Source: Pelosinus sp. UFO1
GTDB lineage: Bacteria; Bacillota; Negativicutes; DSM-13327
Assembly (NCBI RefSeq): GCF_000725345.1
Contig: NZ_CP008852.1
Location: 3,402,001 to 3,466,000, forward strand
Direction of reading: 5' to 3'
DNA: 64,000 nucleotides
The notes under the pieces are model-generated. The model worked only from the letters and a program-made list of their open reading frames with translations. It did no database searches and was not told the DNA's origin. Shown here piece after piece: positions 1,004-57,908 of this stretch. How positions within the stretch are numbered: the first letter of the stretch is position 1; every line of letters begins with the position of its first letter. Made by a program: the position numbers and the translations under genes.

Positions 1004-1163
1004 TAAGAAAAACGTTACGCGTCCTTTTTTAACCACAAAGACACAAAGGTCACAAAGGGGTTCTATCCATTTCATTCCCATCTTCTTTGTGTGCCGCGAT
1101 AGCGGCATTGTGTCTTTGTGGTTCAATCTTTTTAACTAGAAACTTATAAATTCTGATACCATA
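1004..1163 (+). repeat. Palindromic ACCACAAAG repeat, copy A (family 1)
   Basis: A 160-bp element starting TAAGAAAAACG and ending TTCTGATACCATAAAA. Its core is a long imperfect inverted repeat, ACCACAAAGACACAAAG against CTTTGTGTCTTTGTGGT, with an inner hairpin TGCCGC-GATA-GCGGCA. Near-identical copies are at 29730-30087 (composite) and 39154-39311. The right end directly abuts the A-tract of the terminator that follows the dicarboxylate carrier gene. It has no coding capacity and looks like a non-autonomous mobile element. Confidence 0.85.
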
Positions 1164-14473: not shown

Positions 14474-14511
14474 GAAAAAGAAGCATTTGCCTTAAACAAA
14501 TACTTCTTTTT
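14474..14511 (-). terminator. Terminator after the SIMPL gene
   Basis: AAAAAGAAG-ATTTG and CAAAT-CTTCTTTTT arms, bidirectional, 50 bp past the stop of the minus-strand gene. Confidence 0.8.
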
Positions 14512-20136: not shown

Positions 20137-20153
20137 CACTACCTACATAATAT

Positions 20154-20249
20154 AAGAAAAGACTTGGTTTGTGCCAAGTCCTCGGACGCAGGCAGAAGCC
20201 TTAGTCGTTCTTACTTGGAATCAAGAAAGTGTTATACTTTCTGATTCCG
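20154..20249 (+). repeat. Structured 96-bp repeat, copy 1 (family 2)
   Basis: Starts AAGAAAAGACTTGG, ends CTGATTCCG. It has two clear hairpins: GACTTGG-TTTG-TGCCAAGTC-like at the left and GGAATCAAGAAAGT/ACTTTCTGATTCC at the right. It lies between a stop codon and that gene's terminator; the CCG end abuts the terminator A-tract. Six further copies occur in the window. Confidence 0.9.
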
Positions 20250-20579: not shown

Positions 20580-20633
20580 AATGCTAGACCTAAGTAATAT
20601 TTTCATAGAATGTCTCTTAATTGGAAATTGCAT

Positions 20634-20729
20634 AAGAAAAGACTTGGCTTGTGCCAAGTCCTCGGACGCAGGCAGAAGCCTTAGTCGTTCTTACTTGGAA
20701 TCAAGAAAGTGTTATACTTTCTGATTCCG
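20634..20729 (+). repeat. Structured 96-bp repeat, copy 2 (family 2)
   Basis: Nearly identical to copy 1, same orientation, 55 bp after the small gene's stop. The CCG end runs directly into the A-tract of the terminator at 20731. Confidence 0.9.
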
Positions 20730-21811: not shown

Positions 21812-21834
21812 TTGCTTACTACAATATGTAATTG

Positions 21835-22233
21835 TATAAAGAGCCCGTAATGATCTACGCTACAGCCAATACCGATCATTACATACCTATACGCAATCTT
21901 TCGACTACCCACAAGCATTACACAACCGATACTGACCTTTGCTCGACTGCCACAGATACCTACCGAACCGGTCGCAATCTCCCGACAACGGCCGACCCCT
22001 ATATCTTCAGCACCCATGACAGTCTTAGCTCGACCGTTATACATCCCTTTTGACCACACGACAACAGTTGGGCTGCCGTACAGCCTTACAAGACATATAA
22101 CGATCTGCCCGCCGACTACTGCCGAACCTTTCGACCCGACAATAATCTTTGGCCGACCAATACCGAACCCTATTAAGATCCGGCACCAGTCTTGGCTCAA
22201 CCATTACGAACCCTCTACAATAAATAGTATGGC
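21835..22233 (-). repeat. 399-bp block of degenerate 21-bp tandem repeats, copy 1 (family 3)
   Basis: Same length as and about four substitutions from 28038-28436. It is richer in G+C than its flanks. On the minus strand, units of about 21 bp begin with GGTCG/GGGTCG-like strings. Read in one minus frame this gives seven-residue steps such as GRPKIIV, GSKGSAV, GRAKTVM, GAEDIGV, GSRAKVS. No frame has a convincing start. Three of the four differences would change amino acids, so coding is doubtful. A minus-strand terminator follows it. Confidence 0.8.
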
Positions 22234-24158: not shown

Positions 24159-24254
24159 CGGAATCAGAAAGTATAACACTTTCTTGATTCCAAGTAAGAA
24201 CGACTAAGGCTTCTGCCTGCGTCCGAGGACTTGGCACAAGCCAAGTCTTTTCTT
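24159..24254 (-). repeat. Structured 96-bp repeat, copy 3, inverted (family 2)
   Basis: Reverse-orientation copy. Its CCG end touches the T tract of the terminator before it. Read in this direction the element itself ends with GACTTGGC-ACAA-GCCAAGTC-TTTTCTT, a good terminator. Confidence 0.9.
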
Positions 24255-24268
24255 ATCTTTTTTTAAAA

Positions 24269-28018: not shown

Positions 28019-28037
28019 ACGAGTACATTTTTTAATA

Positions 28038-28436
28038 TATAAAGAGCCCGTAATGATCTACGCTACAGCCAATACCGATCATTACATACCTATACGCAAT
28101 CTTTCGACTACCCACAAGCATTACACAACCGATACTGACCTTTGCTCGACTGCCACAGATACCTACCGAACCGGTCGCAATCTCCCGACAACGGCCGACC
28201 CCTATAGCTTCAGCACCCATGACAGTCTTAGCTCGACCGTTATACATCCCTTTTGACCATACGACAACAGTTGGGCTGCCGCACAGCCTTACAAGACATA
28301 TAACGATCTGCCCGCCGACTACTGCCGAACCTTTCGACCCGACAATAATCTTTGGCCGACCAATACCGAACCCTTTTAAGATCCGGCACCAGTCTTGGCT
28401 CAACCATTACGAACCCTCTACAATAAATAGTATGGC
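28038..28436 (-). repeat. 399-bp block of degenerate 21-bp tandem repeats, copy 2 (family 3)
   Basis: About 395/399 identical to 21835-22233, without gaps. Flanking similarity on the right fades over about 30 bp. It lies directly downstream of the Tat-exported HD protein gene on the same strand, so it could be part of that transcript or have its own promoter. Confidence 0.8.
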
Positions 28437-29729: not shown

Positions 29730-30087
29730 TAAGAAAAACGCTACGCGTCCTTTTTGAACCACAAAGACACAAAGGTCACAAAGAAAACATTGGATACGGA
29801 GGGCGTAAAGGATTTGAACCACAGAGGCGCAGAGGACACAGAGAATGGGAGGTGTTCGTATGGCAAACCATATTATAAATGCTACTCTGCGCCCTCTGTG
29901 GTGCTCTGTGTTCTCTGTGGTTCAACGTTTACCAAAGCAGCAAACGCTACGCGTCCCTTGTTGAACCACAAAGATACAAAGGAGTTCTATCCATTTCATT
30001 CCCATCTTCTTTGTGTGCCGCGATAGCGGCATTGTGCCTTTGTGGTTCAATCCTTTTAACTAGAAACTTATAAATTCTGATACCATA
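29730..30087 (+). repeat. Composite ACCACAAAG repeat, copy B (family 1)
   Basis: Begins TAAGAAAAACG and the first arm of family 1. It then contains a second palindrome built of ACCACAGAGG/CCTCTGTGGT units (about 29817-29925), then CGCTACGCGTCC and an almost complete second family 1 copy ending TTCTGATACCATAAAA. It looks like one element nested in or recombined with another. The right end meets the A-tract of the TerC terminator. Confidence 0.85.
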
Positions 30088-32817: not shown

Positions 32818-33366
32818 ATGAAAAGATTTATCTGTGCAATCTGTGGTTATGCTCACGAAGGAGAGAATGCTCCAGCATCCTGTCCTCAGTGTAAGGCTCC
32901 TGCTGAAAAATTTATTGAAAAATCAACTGCTGGTTTAAACTGGGCAGATGAACATAGAATTGGCGTTGCTGTTGGGATTGATCCTGAAATCGTTGAAGGT
33001 CTGAGAATGAACTTCGTAGGTGAATGTACAGAAATTGGTATGTATTTAGCAATGAGCCGTCAAGCTGACAGAGAAGGCTTTCCTGAAGTAGCGGAAGCTT
33101 ATAAAAGAATTGCCTTTGAAGAAGCCGAACATGCTGCAAAATTTGCTGAACTGCTAGGTGAAGTCGTACATCCTTCCACTAAGAAAAATCTTGAACTTCG
33201 CGTTGAAGCTGAATATGGTGCTTGCGAAGGAAAATTAGGCTTAGCAAAAAAAGCGAAACAATTGAACCTAGATGCAATCCATGACACTGTACATGAAATG
33301 TGTAAGGATGAAGCTCGTCATGGTGCTGCTTTTAAAGGTCTTTTAGACAGATACTTCAGTAAATAA
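32818..33366 (+). CDS. Reverse rubrerythrin (rubredoxin domain first)
   Basis: A 182-residue peroxide-scavenging protein. A rubredoxin-like Fe(Cys)4 domain comes first (CAICGY at residues 6-11 and CPQCKAP near 26), then a four-helix diiron ferritin-like domain with EGECTEIG-type, EEAEHAAKF and DEARHG ligands. The domain order is opposite to classical rubrerythrin and matches the clostridial reverse form, an NADH-dependent peroxidase component. AAGGAGAG precedes the ATG at 32818. The stop codon TAA coincides with the first bases of a family 2 repeat. Confidence 0.9.
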
Positions 33367-33460
33367 GAAAAGACTTGGCTTGTGCCAATTCCTCGGATGC
33401 AGACAGAAGCCTTAGTCGTTCTTACTTGGAATCAAGAAAGTGTTATACTTTCTGATTCCG
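33365..33460 (+). repeat. Structured 96-bp repeat, copy 4 (family 2)
   Basis: The most diverged intact copy (GTGCCAATT and GGATGCAGACAG variants weaken the left hairpin). It begins inside the rubrerythrin stop codon and its CCG end leads into TAAAATAAACAAGC before the terminator. Confidence 0.88.
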
Positions 33461-36190: not shown

Positions 36191-36438
36191 CCGCTCTTAA
36201 CTCCCACTTATATAAGTGAGCCTTGGATTCGAAAATCCTTAGAGCGAACTTACTTCGAGTTTACAGACTGTTATCCGGACCAGAGGGCAGGATATTACAG
36301 GCTGTTAACGAGATAAGTGAGCCTTGGATTCGAAAATCCTTAGAGCGAACTTACTTCGAGTTTACAGACTGTTATCCGGACCAGAGGGCAGGATATTACA
36401 GGCTGTTAACGAGATGAAGATGGGAGTCTTAGAGCGGT
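36191..36438. repeat. Inverted repeat enclosing the tandem 101-bp duplication
   Basis: CCGCTCTTAACTCCCA (36191-36206) pairs with TGGGAGTCTTAGAGCGG (36422-36438). Together with the duplication inside, it fills most of the 365-bp leader between a small membrane-protein gene and the beta subunit gene. Confidence 0.7.
36212..36413 (-). repeat. Two tandem 101-bp direct repeats
   Basis: Units 36212-36312 and 36313-36413 appear identical. Each holds GGATT-CGAA-AATCC and GAGCGAA...TTCGAG-type small hairpins. The string CCTTAG-CG-CTTACTT-GA-TGTTAT also occurs, with a few changes, in the family 2 repeats. Noncoding; an ATG frame crossing both units is an accident of the repeat length. Confidence 0.85.
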
Positions 36439-38305: not shown

Positions 38306-38980
38306 TTATTCGGGACTACGATCTGCTAACAGCAATGGCAGTTCTCCTCGCATTGCCAGTATAAGTCGGTTTTCAACCTCGCACCAATTAATTAAATGTA
38401 ACCATTTTTTAACATATTGCTCACGATCGTATTGATAATCAAGATAGTAGGCATGTTCCCAAACATCGATTACCAATATGGGAATTGTTCCCCACTGGGT
38501 AAGGTTTTGGTGTTTCTCTGCCGTAAGAATCTCCAAATGCATAAAAGCTGGATTCCAGACGAGTATCCCCCAGCCAGATGCTTCTACTTTTATAGTTGCC
38601 GACACAAGCTGGTCAAGAAATGCATCAAAACTTCCAAAGTATTTATTAATTTCTCTCATTGTACATCGACCAGGCTCACTGTCAAATTCTACAGGTGCCA
38701 TAATTGTCCAATAAATGCTATGCAGAATATGCCCTGACCCATTAAACGCCAATTCATTTTCCCAATATTTTATGAAGGTAAGATTATTTTGCCGCCTAGC
38801 TTCTACTAGCGCTAACTCAGCCTTATTTAGCCCATCTACATAAGACTTGTGGTGATGATCGTGATGAAACCTAAGGGTGTCAGAGCTAATAATTGGCTCA
38901 AGTGCATCATAAGGATAAGGCAATGGCGGTAATTTATGTCTACCTGGTGGAATATAATCATTGATTACGTTGTTAGCCAA
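38306..38980 (-). CDS. sodA: Fe/Mn superoxide dismutase
   Basis: A 224-residue Fe/Mn-SOD. Metal ligands can be placed: His in RFHHDHHHKSYVDGLN, His in GHILHSIYW, and Asp/His in DVWEHAYYLDYQ. LPPLPYPYDALEP is the normal N-terminal region after a short extension. The start is TTG behind AGGAGG. The fold detoxifies superoxide; metal preference cannot be fixed by eye. Fits with rubrerythrin as oxygen defence of an anaerobe. Confidence 0.92.
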   Translation of the reverse strand: MANNVINDYIPPGRHKLPPLPYPYDALEPIISSDTLRFHHDHHHKSYVDGLNKAELALVEARRQNNLTFIKYWENELAFNGSGHILHSIYWTIMAPVEFDSEPGRCTMREINKYFGSFDAFLDQLVSATIKVEASGWGILVWNPAFMHLEILTAEKHQNLTQWGTIPILVIDVWEHAYYLDYQYDREQYVKKWLHLINWCEVENRLILAMRGELPLLLADRSPE

Positions 38981-39057
38981 TATTATTAACCTCCTTTCTT
39001 AATTTAAACGCTTCTATTTTTTATTATATTTCGCTAACATATGAGTGGTTACAAAAT

Positions 39058-39153
39058 AAGAAAAGACTTGGCTTAGGCCAAGTCCTCAGACGCAGGCAGA
39101 AGCCTTAGTCGTTCTTACTTGGAATCAAGAAAGTGTTATACTTTCTGATTCCG
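39058..39153 (+). repeat. Structured 96-bp repeat, copy 5 (family 2)
   Basis: Variant loop (GCTTAGGCCAAGTC). Its CCG end is fused directly to family 1 copy C through TAAAAAAACG, giving a tandem composite upstream of sodA. Confidence 0.9.
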
Positions 39154-39311
39154 TAAAAAAACGTTACGCGTCCTTTCTGAACCACAAAGACACAAAGGTC
39201 ACAAAAGGGTTCTATCCATTTCATTCCCATCTTCTTTGTGTGCCGCGATAGCGGCATTGTGTCTTTGTGGTTCAATCTTTTAATTAGAAACTTATAAATT
39301 CTGATACCATA
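39154..39311 (+). repeat. Palindromic ACCACAAAG repeat, copy C (family 1)
   Basis: Nearly identical to copy A. Its right end TTCTGATACCATAAGAAAAGAC runs straight into a string equal to the left end of family 2. Confidence 0.85.
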
Positions 39312-39349
39312 AGAAAAGACATAAATGAAGGCCTCTACTTAACGGAATT

Positions 39350-40342
39350 TCATTTGTACCACTTCATAATACTGGAAGCCCAGGTTAATCCTCCTCCAAA
39401 ACCGACTAATGCAATAATATCACCTGGCTTAATTACCCCCGATTTTACAGCTTCATCAAGAGCAATGGGAACAGAAGCCGCCGATGTATTTCCATATTTA
39501 TCAACGTTTACCACAACTTTTTCCATTGGTAAACCCAGCCTTTTCGCTGCTGATTTAATAATCCGAATATTAGCTTGATGTGGCACAAGATAGGTTACGT
39601 CAACAGGAGTAAGATTTGCATTCTGCAAAGCTTTGCTTGTAGTTTCTCCCATTATCTTAACTGCAAATTTAAATACCTCGTTGCCATCCATCTGAATATA
39701 ATGTTGTCTTTGTAATACAGTTTCAGCCGTCGCAGGGTTACGCGAACCGCCAGCCGGCACCTTCAGAAGCTCTGCACCACTGCCATTTGAACCCAAATCC
39801 ACTCCTAAAATCCCATAACCCTCCGGCGTTTCACCTAAAACAGCAGCCCCAGCGCCATCACCAAATAACATTCCAGTCTTACGATCACTCCAATCTGTAA
39901 TTCTGGAAAGGGTCTCTGCTCCGATTACTAATACTTTACGATAAACACCTGCTTTGATAAATTGACTACCGGTTACCAGGGCGTAGATAAATCCAGAGCA
40001 AGCTGCAGAAACATCAAAAGCAGCTGCATTTATTGCTTTTAAATTATCTTGCACCAAACATGCTGTTGCAGGGAACGCCATATCGGCGGTACCTGTTGCA
40101 ACAATAATCAAATCTATTTCTGCAGCAGTAATATTAGCATCTTCTAATGCCTTTTGAGCCGCTTTCGTGGCTAAGTCTGACGTAGCTTCATTCTCTGCTG
40201 CGACATGCCGTTTGCGAATACCCGTACGCTCAACGATCCATTCATCAGAGGTATCCATTACTTGTTCTAGGTCCTTATTCGTCATAATCTTCTCAGGCAC
40301 ATAAGACCCTAACCCAATAATACCAACGTATTTATTATTCAC
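39350..40342 (-). CDS. fabH: 3-oxoacyl-ACP synthase III
   Basis: A 330-residue KAS III that condenses acetyl-CoA (or a branched primer) with malonyl-ACP to start fatty acid synthesis. Catalytic Cys in SAACSGFIYAL near residue 112, His in VPHQANIRI and Asn in YGNTSAASV complete the triad; GFGGGLTWAS ends the protein. The start is GTG behind GGGAGGG. It stands alone, away from a fab operon, with a FapR-like palindrome upstream. Confidence 0.92.
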   Translation of the reverse strand: MNNKYVGIIGLGSYVPEKIMTNKDLEQVMDTSDEWIVERTGIRKRHVAAENEATSDLATKAAQKALEDANITAAEIDLIIVATGTADMAFPATACLVQDNLKAINAAAFDVSAACSGFIYALVTGSQFIKAGVYRKVLVIGAETLSRITDWSDRKTGMLFGDGAGAAVLGETPEGYGILGVDLGSNGSGAELLKVPAGGSRNPATAETVLQRQHYIQMDGNEVFKFAVKIMGETTSKALQNANLTPVDVTYLVPHQANIRIIKSAAKRLGLPMEKVVVNVDKYGNTSAASVPIALDEAVKSGVIKPGDIIALVGFGGGLTWASSIMKWYK

Positions 40343-48610: not shown

Positions 48611-48613
48611 TTT

Positions 48614-48709
48614 AAGAAAAGACTTGGCTTGTGCCAAGTCTTCAGACGCAGGCAGAAGCCTTAGTCGTTCTTACTTGGGATCAAGAAAGTGTTATACTTT
48701 CTGATTCCG
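48614..48709 (+). repeat. Structured 96-bp repeat, copy 6 (family 2)
   Basis: Begins four bases after the ligase stop codon. The CCG end continues as CAAAAAAAA into the terminator. Confidence 0.9.
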
Positions 48710-57738: not shown

Positions 57739-57812
57739 TAAAACTCTGGCAAAGTTCTGGAACAGAACCATCTTTGCAGGATTTTGCCGTTGTTTTATGA
57801 CAGTGTTAATCA

Positions 57813-57908
57813 AAGAACGACTAAGGCTTGTGCCAAGTCCTCGGACGCAGGCAGAAGCCTTAGTCGTTCTTACTTGGAATCAAGAAAGTGTTAACCTTTC
57901 TGATTCCG
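57813..57908 (+). repeat. Structured repeat, copy 7, rearranged left end (family 2)
   Basis: The right two thirds match the family. The left hairpin is replaced by AAAGAACGACTAAGGCTT, the reverse complement of the inner AAGCCTTAGTCGTTCTT. This makes a long palindrome and looks like an inversion or hybrid of two copies. The CCG end joins the terminator A-tract. Confidence 0.82.

Follow-up and report, generated by a model that had tools for sequence, protein, structure and literature searches.

Short repeat units stacked head to tail behind intrinsic terminators in a Pelosinus genome: putative PATE-like non-autonomous elements

At positions 39057 to 39333 of the window (the whole stretch of 64,000 nt that was analysed, bases 3402001-3466000 of a 5.1 Mb single-contig genome), two short repeat units are packed between two genes. 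The initial annotation described them as a tandem fusion of a family 2 (F2) and a family 1 (F1) element, overlapping at shared termini and followed by a partial family 2 end. This raises the question of what these units are and how they came to be stacked. Our analysis confirmed that F2 and F1 lie head to tail here (39057-39309) and that both are repeat families, with seven F2 copies (six direct, one inverted) and three F1 copies in the window. The locus was compared with that of a sister genome of the same genus (G006), which aligns to most of the window at 87–96% identity, mostly about 94–95%. The features of the locus are as follows.

38306..38980, minus strand: iron/manganese superoxide dismutase gene, downstream of the stack in the element sense
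39057..39153, minus strand: F2 unit of 97 nt, CGG...TTTTCTTA, with three hairpins, the last of them terminator-like; apparently common to G006
39154..39309, minus strand: F1 unit of 156 nt, TGG...TTTTTTTA, around a long palindrome AACCACAAAGACACAA...; missing at the orthologous site of G006
39310..39333, minus strand: right arm and T-tract (GGCCTTCATTTATGTCTTTTCTTA) of a native intrinsic terminator; the G006 arm, split by an F2, ends a rubrerythrin-like gene
39350..40342, minus strand: 3-oxoacyl-ACP synthase III (FabH) gene, upstream of the stack in the element sense

On the minus strand, which is that of the genes, F2 spans 97 nt as CGG...TTTTCTTA, and F1 mostly 156–159 nt as TGG...TTTTTCTTA. 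In the sense direction F2 has the structure CGGAATCAG...GACTTGGC-loop-GCCAAGTC-TTTTCTTA, and F1 has the structure TGGTATCAG...ACGC-GTA-GCGT-TTTTCTTA. Of 59 short units, 54 are 97 nt long, and of 21 long units, 17 measure 156–159 nt; the 97-nt period is visible at one locus (L156). The unit ends, TAAGAAAAG and CTGATTCCG, are not inverted repeats of each other. Palindromes are found near both termini in F2, and the terminal hairpins of F1 are weak. Across the genome there were 119 matches to the F2 core (59 + 60 on the two strands; 0 + 0 with the reversed pattern as control) and 27 matches to the F1 end (control 0 + 3). The F2 copies are near identical, since 40 of the 41 listed matches are at 96–100% identity (165 candidates, 40 scored). 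The long palindrome of F1 is also found elsewhere in the genome without F1 ends, which makes F1 look like a frame into which a repeat is nested, and G006 has F1 frames with other nested palindromes. The other units of the window are listed below.

1004..1161, minus strand: F1 unit, common to G006
20153..20249, minus strand: F2 unit, empty site in G006 (GCTTTTAG^TACTATG)
20633..20729, minus strand: F2 unit, empty site in G006
24159..24255, plus strand: F2 unit, common to G006
29730..30085, minus strand: composite F1 unit of 356 nt with palindromes nested inside; the G006 site lacks the unit and has diverged flanks
33364..33460, minus strand: F2 unit; G006 has an F1-type unit at the same terminator
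48613..48709, minus strand: F2 unit, common to G006
57812..57908, minus strand: rearranged F2 unit with part of its interior also present as an inverted copy; the left border is approximate, and G006 has a deleted form

As a separate observation, F1 frames with further nested palindromes (of the AACCACAGAGGCGCAGAGG type) occur at 29730-30085 and in the G006 insertion opposite position 14479 of the window, which gives the impression that palindromic repeats are drawn to the frame. None of the 100 listed F2 cores (of 119) lies in G000:C1 1.75–2.56 Mb, near the presumed replication terminus.

The comparison with G006 showed that the units are mobile. Ten sites were called empty, eight in G006 and two in the present genome, and seven of these are clean. 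The three set aside were w0 12581, where G006 carries another F2 remnant, and 46729 and 110438, both with diverged flanks. At the seven clean sites there is no target duplication, the element ends are constant, and the insertion lies directly 3′ of the T-tract of a terminator, as in TTTTTTTG^TTTACAG, TTTATTA^TTCTA and CTTTTAG^TACTATG (element sense); no bases were duplicated or lost beyond small differences. Other copies of the elements are common to both species. The mobile, terminator-targeted nature of F1 and F2 is therefore well supported.

The target was analysed in 80 distinct sampled units of the present genome, counting hairpins of −8 kcal/mol or better. All 80 have a T-rich upstream flank, and in 71 of them a hairpin is adjacent upstream, versus 10 when everything but the T tail of the flank was shuffled; the downstream flank has such a hairpin in 15 units. 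Nine units have no clear upstream hairpin. The base directly before the unit is A in 62 cases, G in 16 and T in 2. Units without a TGG start (mainly F2) are preceded by TTTA in 40 of 62 cases and by TTTG in 14, and TGG-start units (mainly F1) by CTTA in 8 of 18. By length, CTTA precedes 8 of 21 F1-length versus 2 of 59 F2-length units. Five of these eight F1-length units stand behind the end of another element and three behind host sequence. The unit at L042 follows an F2 end with CCTA, as read by eye.

The neighbouring genes are oriented accordingly. Next to the right end of the listed F2 copies on the plus strand there is mostly an A-tract with a hairpin and a T-tract behind it, the host terminator of a gene reading towards F2; at 25 of 30 loci the gene on this side points at F2. 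This makes gene, terminator hairpin, T-tract, element the best order in which to read both families. Of 77 units, 61 have their nearest upstream ORF on the sense strand of the element, and the median distance for these is 66 nt. In a related subfamily (G106/G110), 16 of 17 copies have the T-rich flank and 11 of 17 the upstream hairpin (3 of 17 shuffled), so this subfamily has either weaker terminator targeting or older copies.

Tandem junctions like that of the reported locus recur elsewhere, with five direct junctions among 84 distinct sampled units of the present genome and three among 37 sampled units in G006. The five are, from upstream to downstream in the gene sense, three F2-F1, one F2-F2 and one F1-F2, the last being the reported locus. 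There are further cases, beyond these 5 + 3, of F1 behind truncated F2 ends. The terminal overlap of the elements, as initially proposed, is not real. With the units set by the empty sites (TAAG...CCG and TAAG...CCA on the plus strand), the eight junctions have a gap of 0 in six cases and of −1 in two. The reported locus scores −1, with one base lost from the start of F1 (TAAGAAAAACG to TAAAAAAACG). The apparent likeness between the F2 end and the F1 start is due to the A-rich stretch, from the host or the next element, that follows the F2 right end. Thus the shared termini are no overlap of homologous sequence; both families generally insert behind terminator T-tracts, and the F2 end is terminator-like.

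The initial annotation had also suggested that one element used the end of another as its target. In G006, a 150-nt F1-type unit sits exactly at an F2 end, ...GCCAAGTCTTTTCTTA^TCGCA (TTTTCTTA^TCGCA), and the orthologous F2 in the present genome has nothing behind it. One element has thus used the end of another as its target, the reason being that a hairpin and a T-rich tail make up this end. More generally, F2 is itself a target and head-to-tail stacks arise because it ends in a terminator-like hairpin. This part of the suggestion holds for G006, but it does not describe the order at the reported locus.

The reported locus reads differently. In G006 the FabH gene is followed by a rubrerythrin-like gene (PF02915) and by its terminator, which has one F2 inside the right hairpin arm; behind the T-tract comes a second F2, internally deleted, and then the downstream flank TTTTGTCACCACTCAT. 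The present genome has kept the terminator arm CCTTCATTTATGTCTTTT, followed by F1 and then by F2 with the downstream flank of G006, one base different. This flank of the F2 at 39057..39153 is TTTTGT(A/C)ACCACTCAT and otherwise the same in G006. The supposed partial family 2 end at 39310-39333 turned out to be mostly the right arm and T-tract of the native terminator, G006 carrying the same arm, and at most its final CTTA could derive from an element. The simplest reading seems to be that F2 is old here and common to G006, and that F1 was inserted afterwards, in the T-tract that separates the host terminator from F2. The T-tracts look exchanged, with TGTCTTTTCTTA before F1 (G006: TGTCTTTTTTA), and F1 ends here in TTTTTTTA, usually TTTTTCTTA. 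A single F1 insertion cut 4 nt earlier would give both exchanged tails. Recombination, also raised initially as a source of the junction, may account for details of the T-tracts. A further observation concerns the rubrerythrin-family gene that lies between FabH and the stack in G006 (L092 2763-3272); it is missing here, with its terminator arm kept.

How the units move was approached through their folding. As single-strand DNA, F2 folds far better than shuffled sequences (z −6.3), in a structure where TAAGAA pairs with the TTCTTA at the end, enclosing the last two hairpins. CTTA, the last four bases, can pair with TAAG in 54 of 55 F2 units; of 300 shuffles, 10 pair at all four bases. For F1, guide pairing was predicted in 0 of 21 units. 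The left hairpin of F2 begins 1 nt from the tip, leaving no room 5′ for a left guide, and the 3′ end lies 8 nt behind the last hairpin. RNAalifold on 42 related copies (39 distinct) gave changes on both sides at 7 of 21 pairs; it recovered four pairs of the TAAGAA/TTCTTA helix and elsewhere disagreed with the single-sequence fold. Among 100 listed F2 copies, 81 have their sense on the G-rich strand, as do 22 of the 27 F1; this is the direction expected for lagging-template insertion, but gene orientation shows the same bias.

For IS200/IS605 elements, a guide tetranucleotide 5′ of a palindrome is described as selecting the cut site through base pairing, and there are no inverted repeats and no duplication (PMC8266576, PMC6006769, PMC7290912). 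The IS200 group is further described as having a right-end hairpin about 8 nt from the tip and inserting 3′ of a short motif (PMC7290912). F1 and F2 resemble this group in lacking inverted repeats and target duplication, in the right-end hairpin about 8 nt from the tip and in going in 3′ of a short motif, and in this class IS200 copies are likewise found behind terminators. Unlike IS200, they carry no tnpA, their ends are not homologous to those of the IS200 copies, and the left hairpin of F2 is at the very tip. The ends, the target and, for F2, the complementarity of guide and cleavage site fit non-autonomous, PATE-like single-strand elements of IS200/IS605 type.

The reading that we prefer, with a probability of about 0.7, is that F1 and F2 are non-autonomous elements inserted in one orientation and without target duplication 3′ of intrinsic terminators, most likely by Y1 single-strand chemistry in trans, with stacking on F2 ends, and with F2 first and F1 later at the reported locus. 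Y1 chemistry is what we infer as the best explanation of the ends and target. The reaction would be single-strand 'peel and paste', with a Y1 (HUH) transposase of IS200/IS605 type supplied in trans. The right end of F2 would consist of the guide TAAG, hairpins, a T-rich stretch, CTTA and the cut, and host terminators, which resemble it, would serve as landing sites, made up of a hairpin, a T-tract, then A or G, the cut and mostly T. By its own terminator-like end each F2 would offer a new target and give rise to head-to-tail stacks. At the reported locus F2 would have come first, and F1 would have entered later into the T-tract between the host terminator and F2. Several results count against this reading: no IS200-type transposase turned up in the present genome and no F1 or F2 ends at 30 Y1 loci, F1 has no predicted guide pairing and F2 no room for a left guide, the strand bias is confounded with gene orientation, and an upstream hairpin is not clear in 9 of 80 units, is present in 11 of 17 copies of the G106/G110 subfamily, and a terminator-like site precedes 12 of 23 Y1 loci in a general scan.

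The PATE elements of Haloquadratum, as described in PMC3119063, are like F1 and F2 short, without terminal inverted repeats, target duplication or gene, and with small repeats nested inside. They have near-terminal palindromes, as does F2, F1 showing weak terminal hairpins. F1 and F2 are, as PATE, too short for a transposase gene. Unlike PATE, they are bacterial and terminator-targeted with a terminator-like hairpin end, and a search for a partner transposon sharing their ends found none. At 30 Y1 loci (L160–L189) there were no convincing F1 or F2 ends and no F2 core, and the PATE trait of ends like those of an IS605-type transposon was thus not seen there. Our verdict is that F1 and F2 are PATE-like non-autonomous elements with terminator targeting and self-stacking.

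Other routes were weighed against this. One is that F1 and F2 are mobilised by the resident Y1 protein, the role proposed for RAYTs with regard to REPs. No IS200-type transposase was found in the present genome; at E up to 0.001, PF01797 matches a single gene there, of 253 aa and REP/TIR-associated type (L061 1468-2229, G000:C1 about 398 kb). It is the only Y1 gene found there, and an orthologue 96% identical is kept in G006 (L226), a genome that also has insertions unshared with the present one. However, the gene is flanked by a GGGGACGG-like motif and not by F2 or F1 ends or a terminator, and it was rejected as a parent. Moreover, each of the seven other genomes of the genus has a Y1 gene of similar length (253–292 aa), and in five of these genomes the pattern for the F2 core gives 0 or 1 match. 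REPs are described as high-copy palindromic extragenic sequences of 20–40 bp with a GTAG tetranucleotide, in tandem groups and linked to Y1 enzymes (PMC8266576, PMC3733652). F1 and F2 resemble REPs and BIMEs with RAYT (TnpAREP) as high-copy palindromic extragenic repeats in tandem groups; unlike REPs, F2 is 97 nt long, has TAAG and does not flank the RAYT-like gene. We regard mobilisation by this protein as unlikely.

Quite improbable, in our view, is an RNA-mediated insertion like that of group IIC introns, in which RNA ending in the terminator U-tract would be reverse transcribed into new terminators. Group II introns start with GTGYG, and F2 and F1 start with CGG and TGG instead. Robart et al. 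reportedly described group IIC introns behind intrinsic terminators in 2007. The terminator target and fixed orientation given for these introns (PMC3898094) are shared by F1 and F2 (hairpin in 71/80 units), and the 3′ end of the element, 8 nt past the last hairpin, is where an intrinsic terminator would release the RNA; but such introns need a ribozyme and a reverse transcriptase, and neither was found here (0 matches to PF00078 in the present genome, none to Rfam at gathering score over the whole window). A route without any transposase, in which the units spread and stack because similar terminator tails recombine or allow template switching, is very improbable. T-tracts and terminator hairpins are indeed alike between sites, the F2 at 57812-57908 has an inverted internal piece, and the T-tracts of the reported locus look exchanged; against this stand the clean empty sites at unrelated terminators, the 119 core matches, near identical where scored, and the length of 97 nt in 54/59 short units.

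Further searches concerned the presumed Y1 enzyme and relatives. The present genome has no match to the TnpB family PF07282. G008 has F2 copies and no PF01797 match in its 89%-complete draft, and IS200-length Y1 types were found in G004, G005 and G009. For the F2/F1 region, all Rfam matches at the E-value threshold were sub-gathering; around three related copies it gave 5S rRNA at its gathering score and otherwise sub-gathering matches only. No F2 was found in plasmids and phages, and the exact core was not found in viral contigs. A 28-nt hairpin match in other genomes was rejected as an element. It is an ordinary terminator hairpin, found for example (by eye) behind a gene ending ...RYRSILEKLNLRK, which we take to be rpsO, and therefore this hairpin alone says nothing on kinship.

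The F2 core is present in 17 of 200 genomes of the class. Named carriers of the core include a Pelosinus MAG and Sporomusa acidovorans. Conservation across the class extends to the segment TAAGAACGACTAAGGCTTCTGCC; other families keep TAAG and the following core, and their left hairpin is completely different. In another class family, as read from the rows, the terminal CTTA is kept in 18 of 20 fetched copies; L245 is interrupted and L251 is without CTTA. In most copies an unrelated sequence with a similar shape stands in place of the left hairpin (AGTCTACCAGAATTTATAACGCAATTCTG in G106). One F2-like copy with the same flanks occurs in three genomes of the genus (L071, L072, L073) with its left hairpin swapped, and may be an old fixed copy.

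We also looked at the autonomous IS200-type elements of the class. Copies with a usable left border lie directly behind terminators in 20 of 20 cases from four genomes: 9/9 in G055, 3/3 in G035, 7/7 fetched in G052 and 1/1 readable in G024, by eye. These cover all nine listed copies of G055, all three of G035, seven of the eight PF01797 matches of G052 and one of 19 in G024, where a second copy, L173, is without flank. The left borders in G052 were set by the left-end motif, 6/6 being computed and L216 read by eye from L231; with the G052 borders displaced by an indel, 12 of 19 copies have a hairpin (4 shuffled). Single IS200 loci behind terminators are L178, L179, L181 and L183. A general scan, in which most left borders were unset, gave a terminator-like site within 320 nt upstream in 12 of 23 Y1 loci with an ORF (of 24; L175 has none). 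The ends of the IS200 copies differ from those of F1 and F2.

These data make it about an even chance that Y1 single-strand transposons of the class, both autonomous IS200 and their gene-less derivatives, use host intrinsic terminators as landing pads, the hairpin and T-tract mimicking their own right end, and that the gene-less elements spare genes, create their own targets and build stacks. We found no description of IS200 or PATE elements at intrinsic terminators in the titles and abstracts that our searches of open-access papers listed. If true, terminator targeting by group IIC introns would have a DNA-based counterpart, reached independently of them: the ends of transcription units would be a safe and abundant target, defined by structure, for a family of single-strand transposons. 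It would account for the high-copy, near-identical intergenic repeats in these bacteria and offer a ready model for direct tests of structure-based target recognition. The units may also add terminators and 3′-end hairpins to about a hundred transcripts.

Two other repeats were noted in the window. Positions 36212-36413 hold an exact head-to-tail duplication of 101 nt, apparently one copy in G006, and 21824-22123 and 28027-28326 form a 300-nt direct repeat, 97% identical and 6.2 kb apart.
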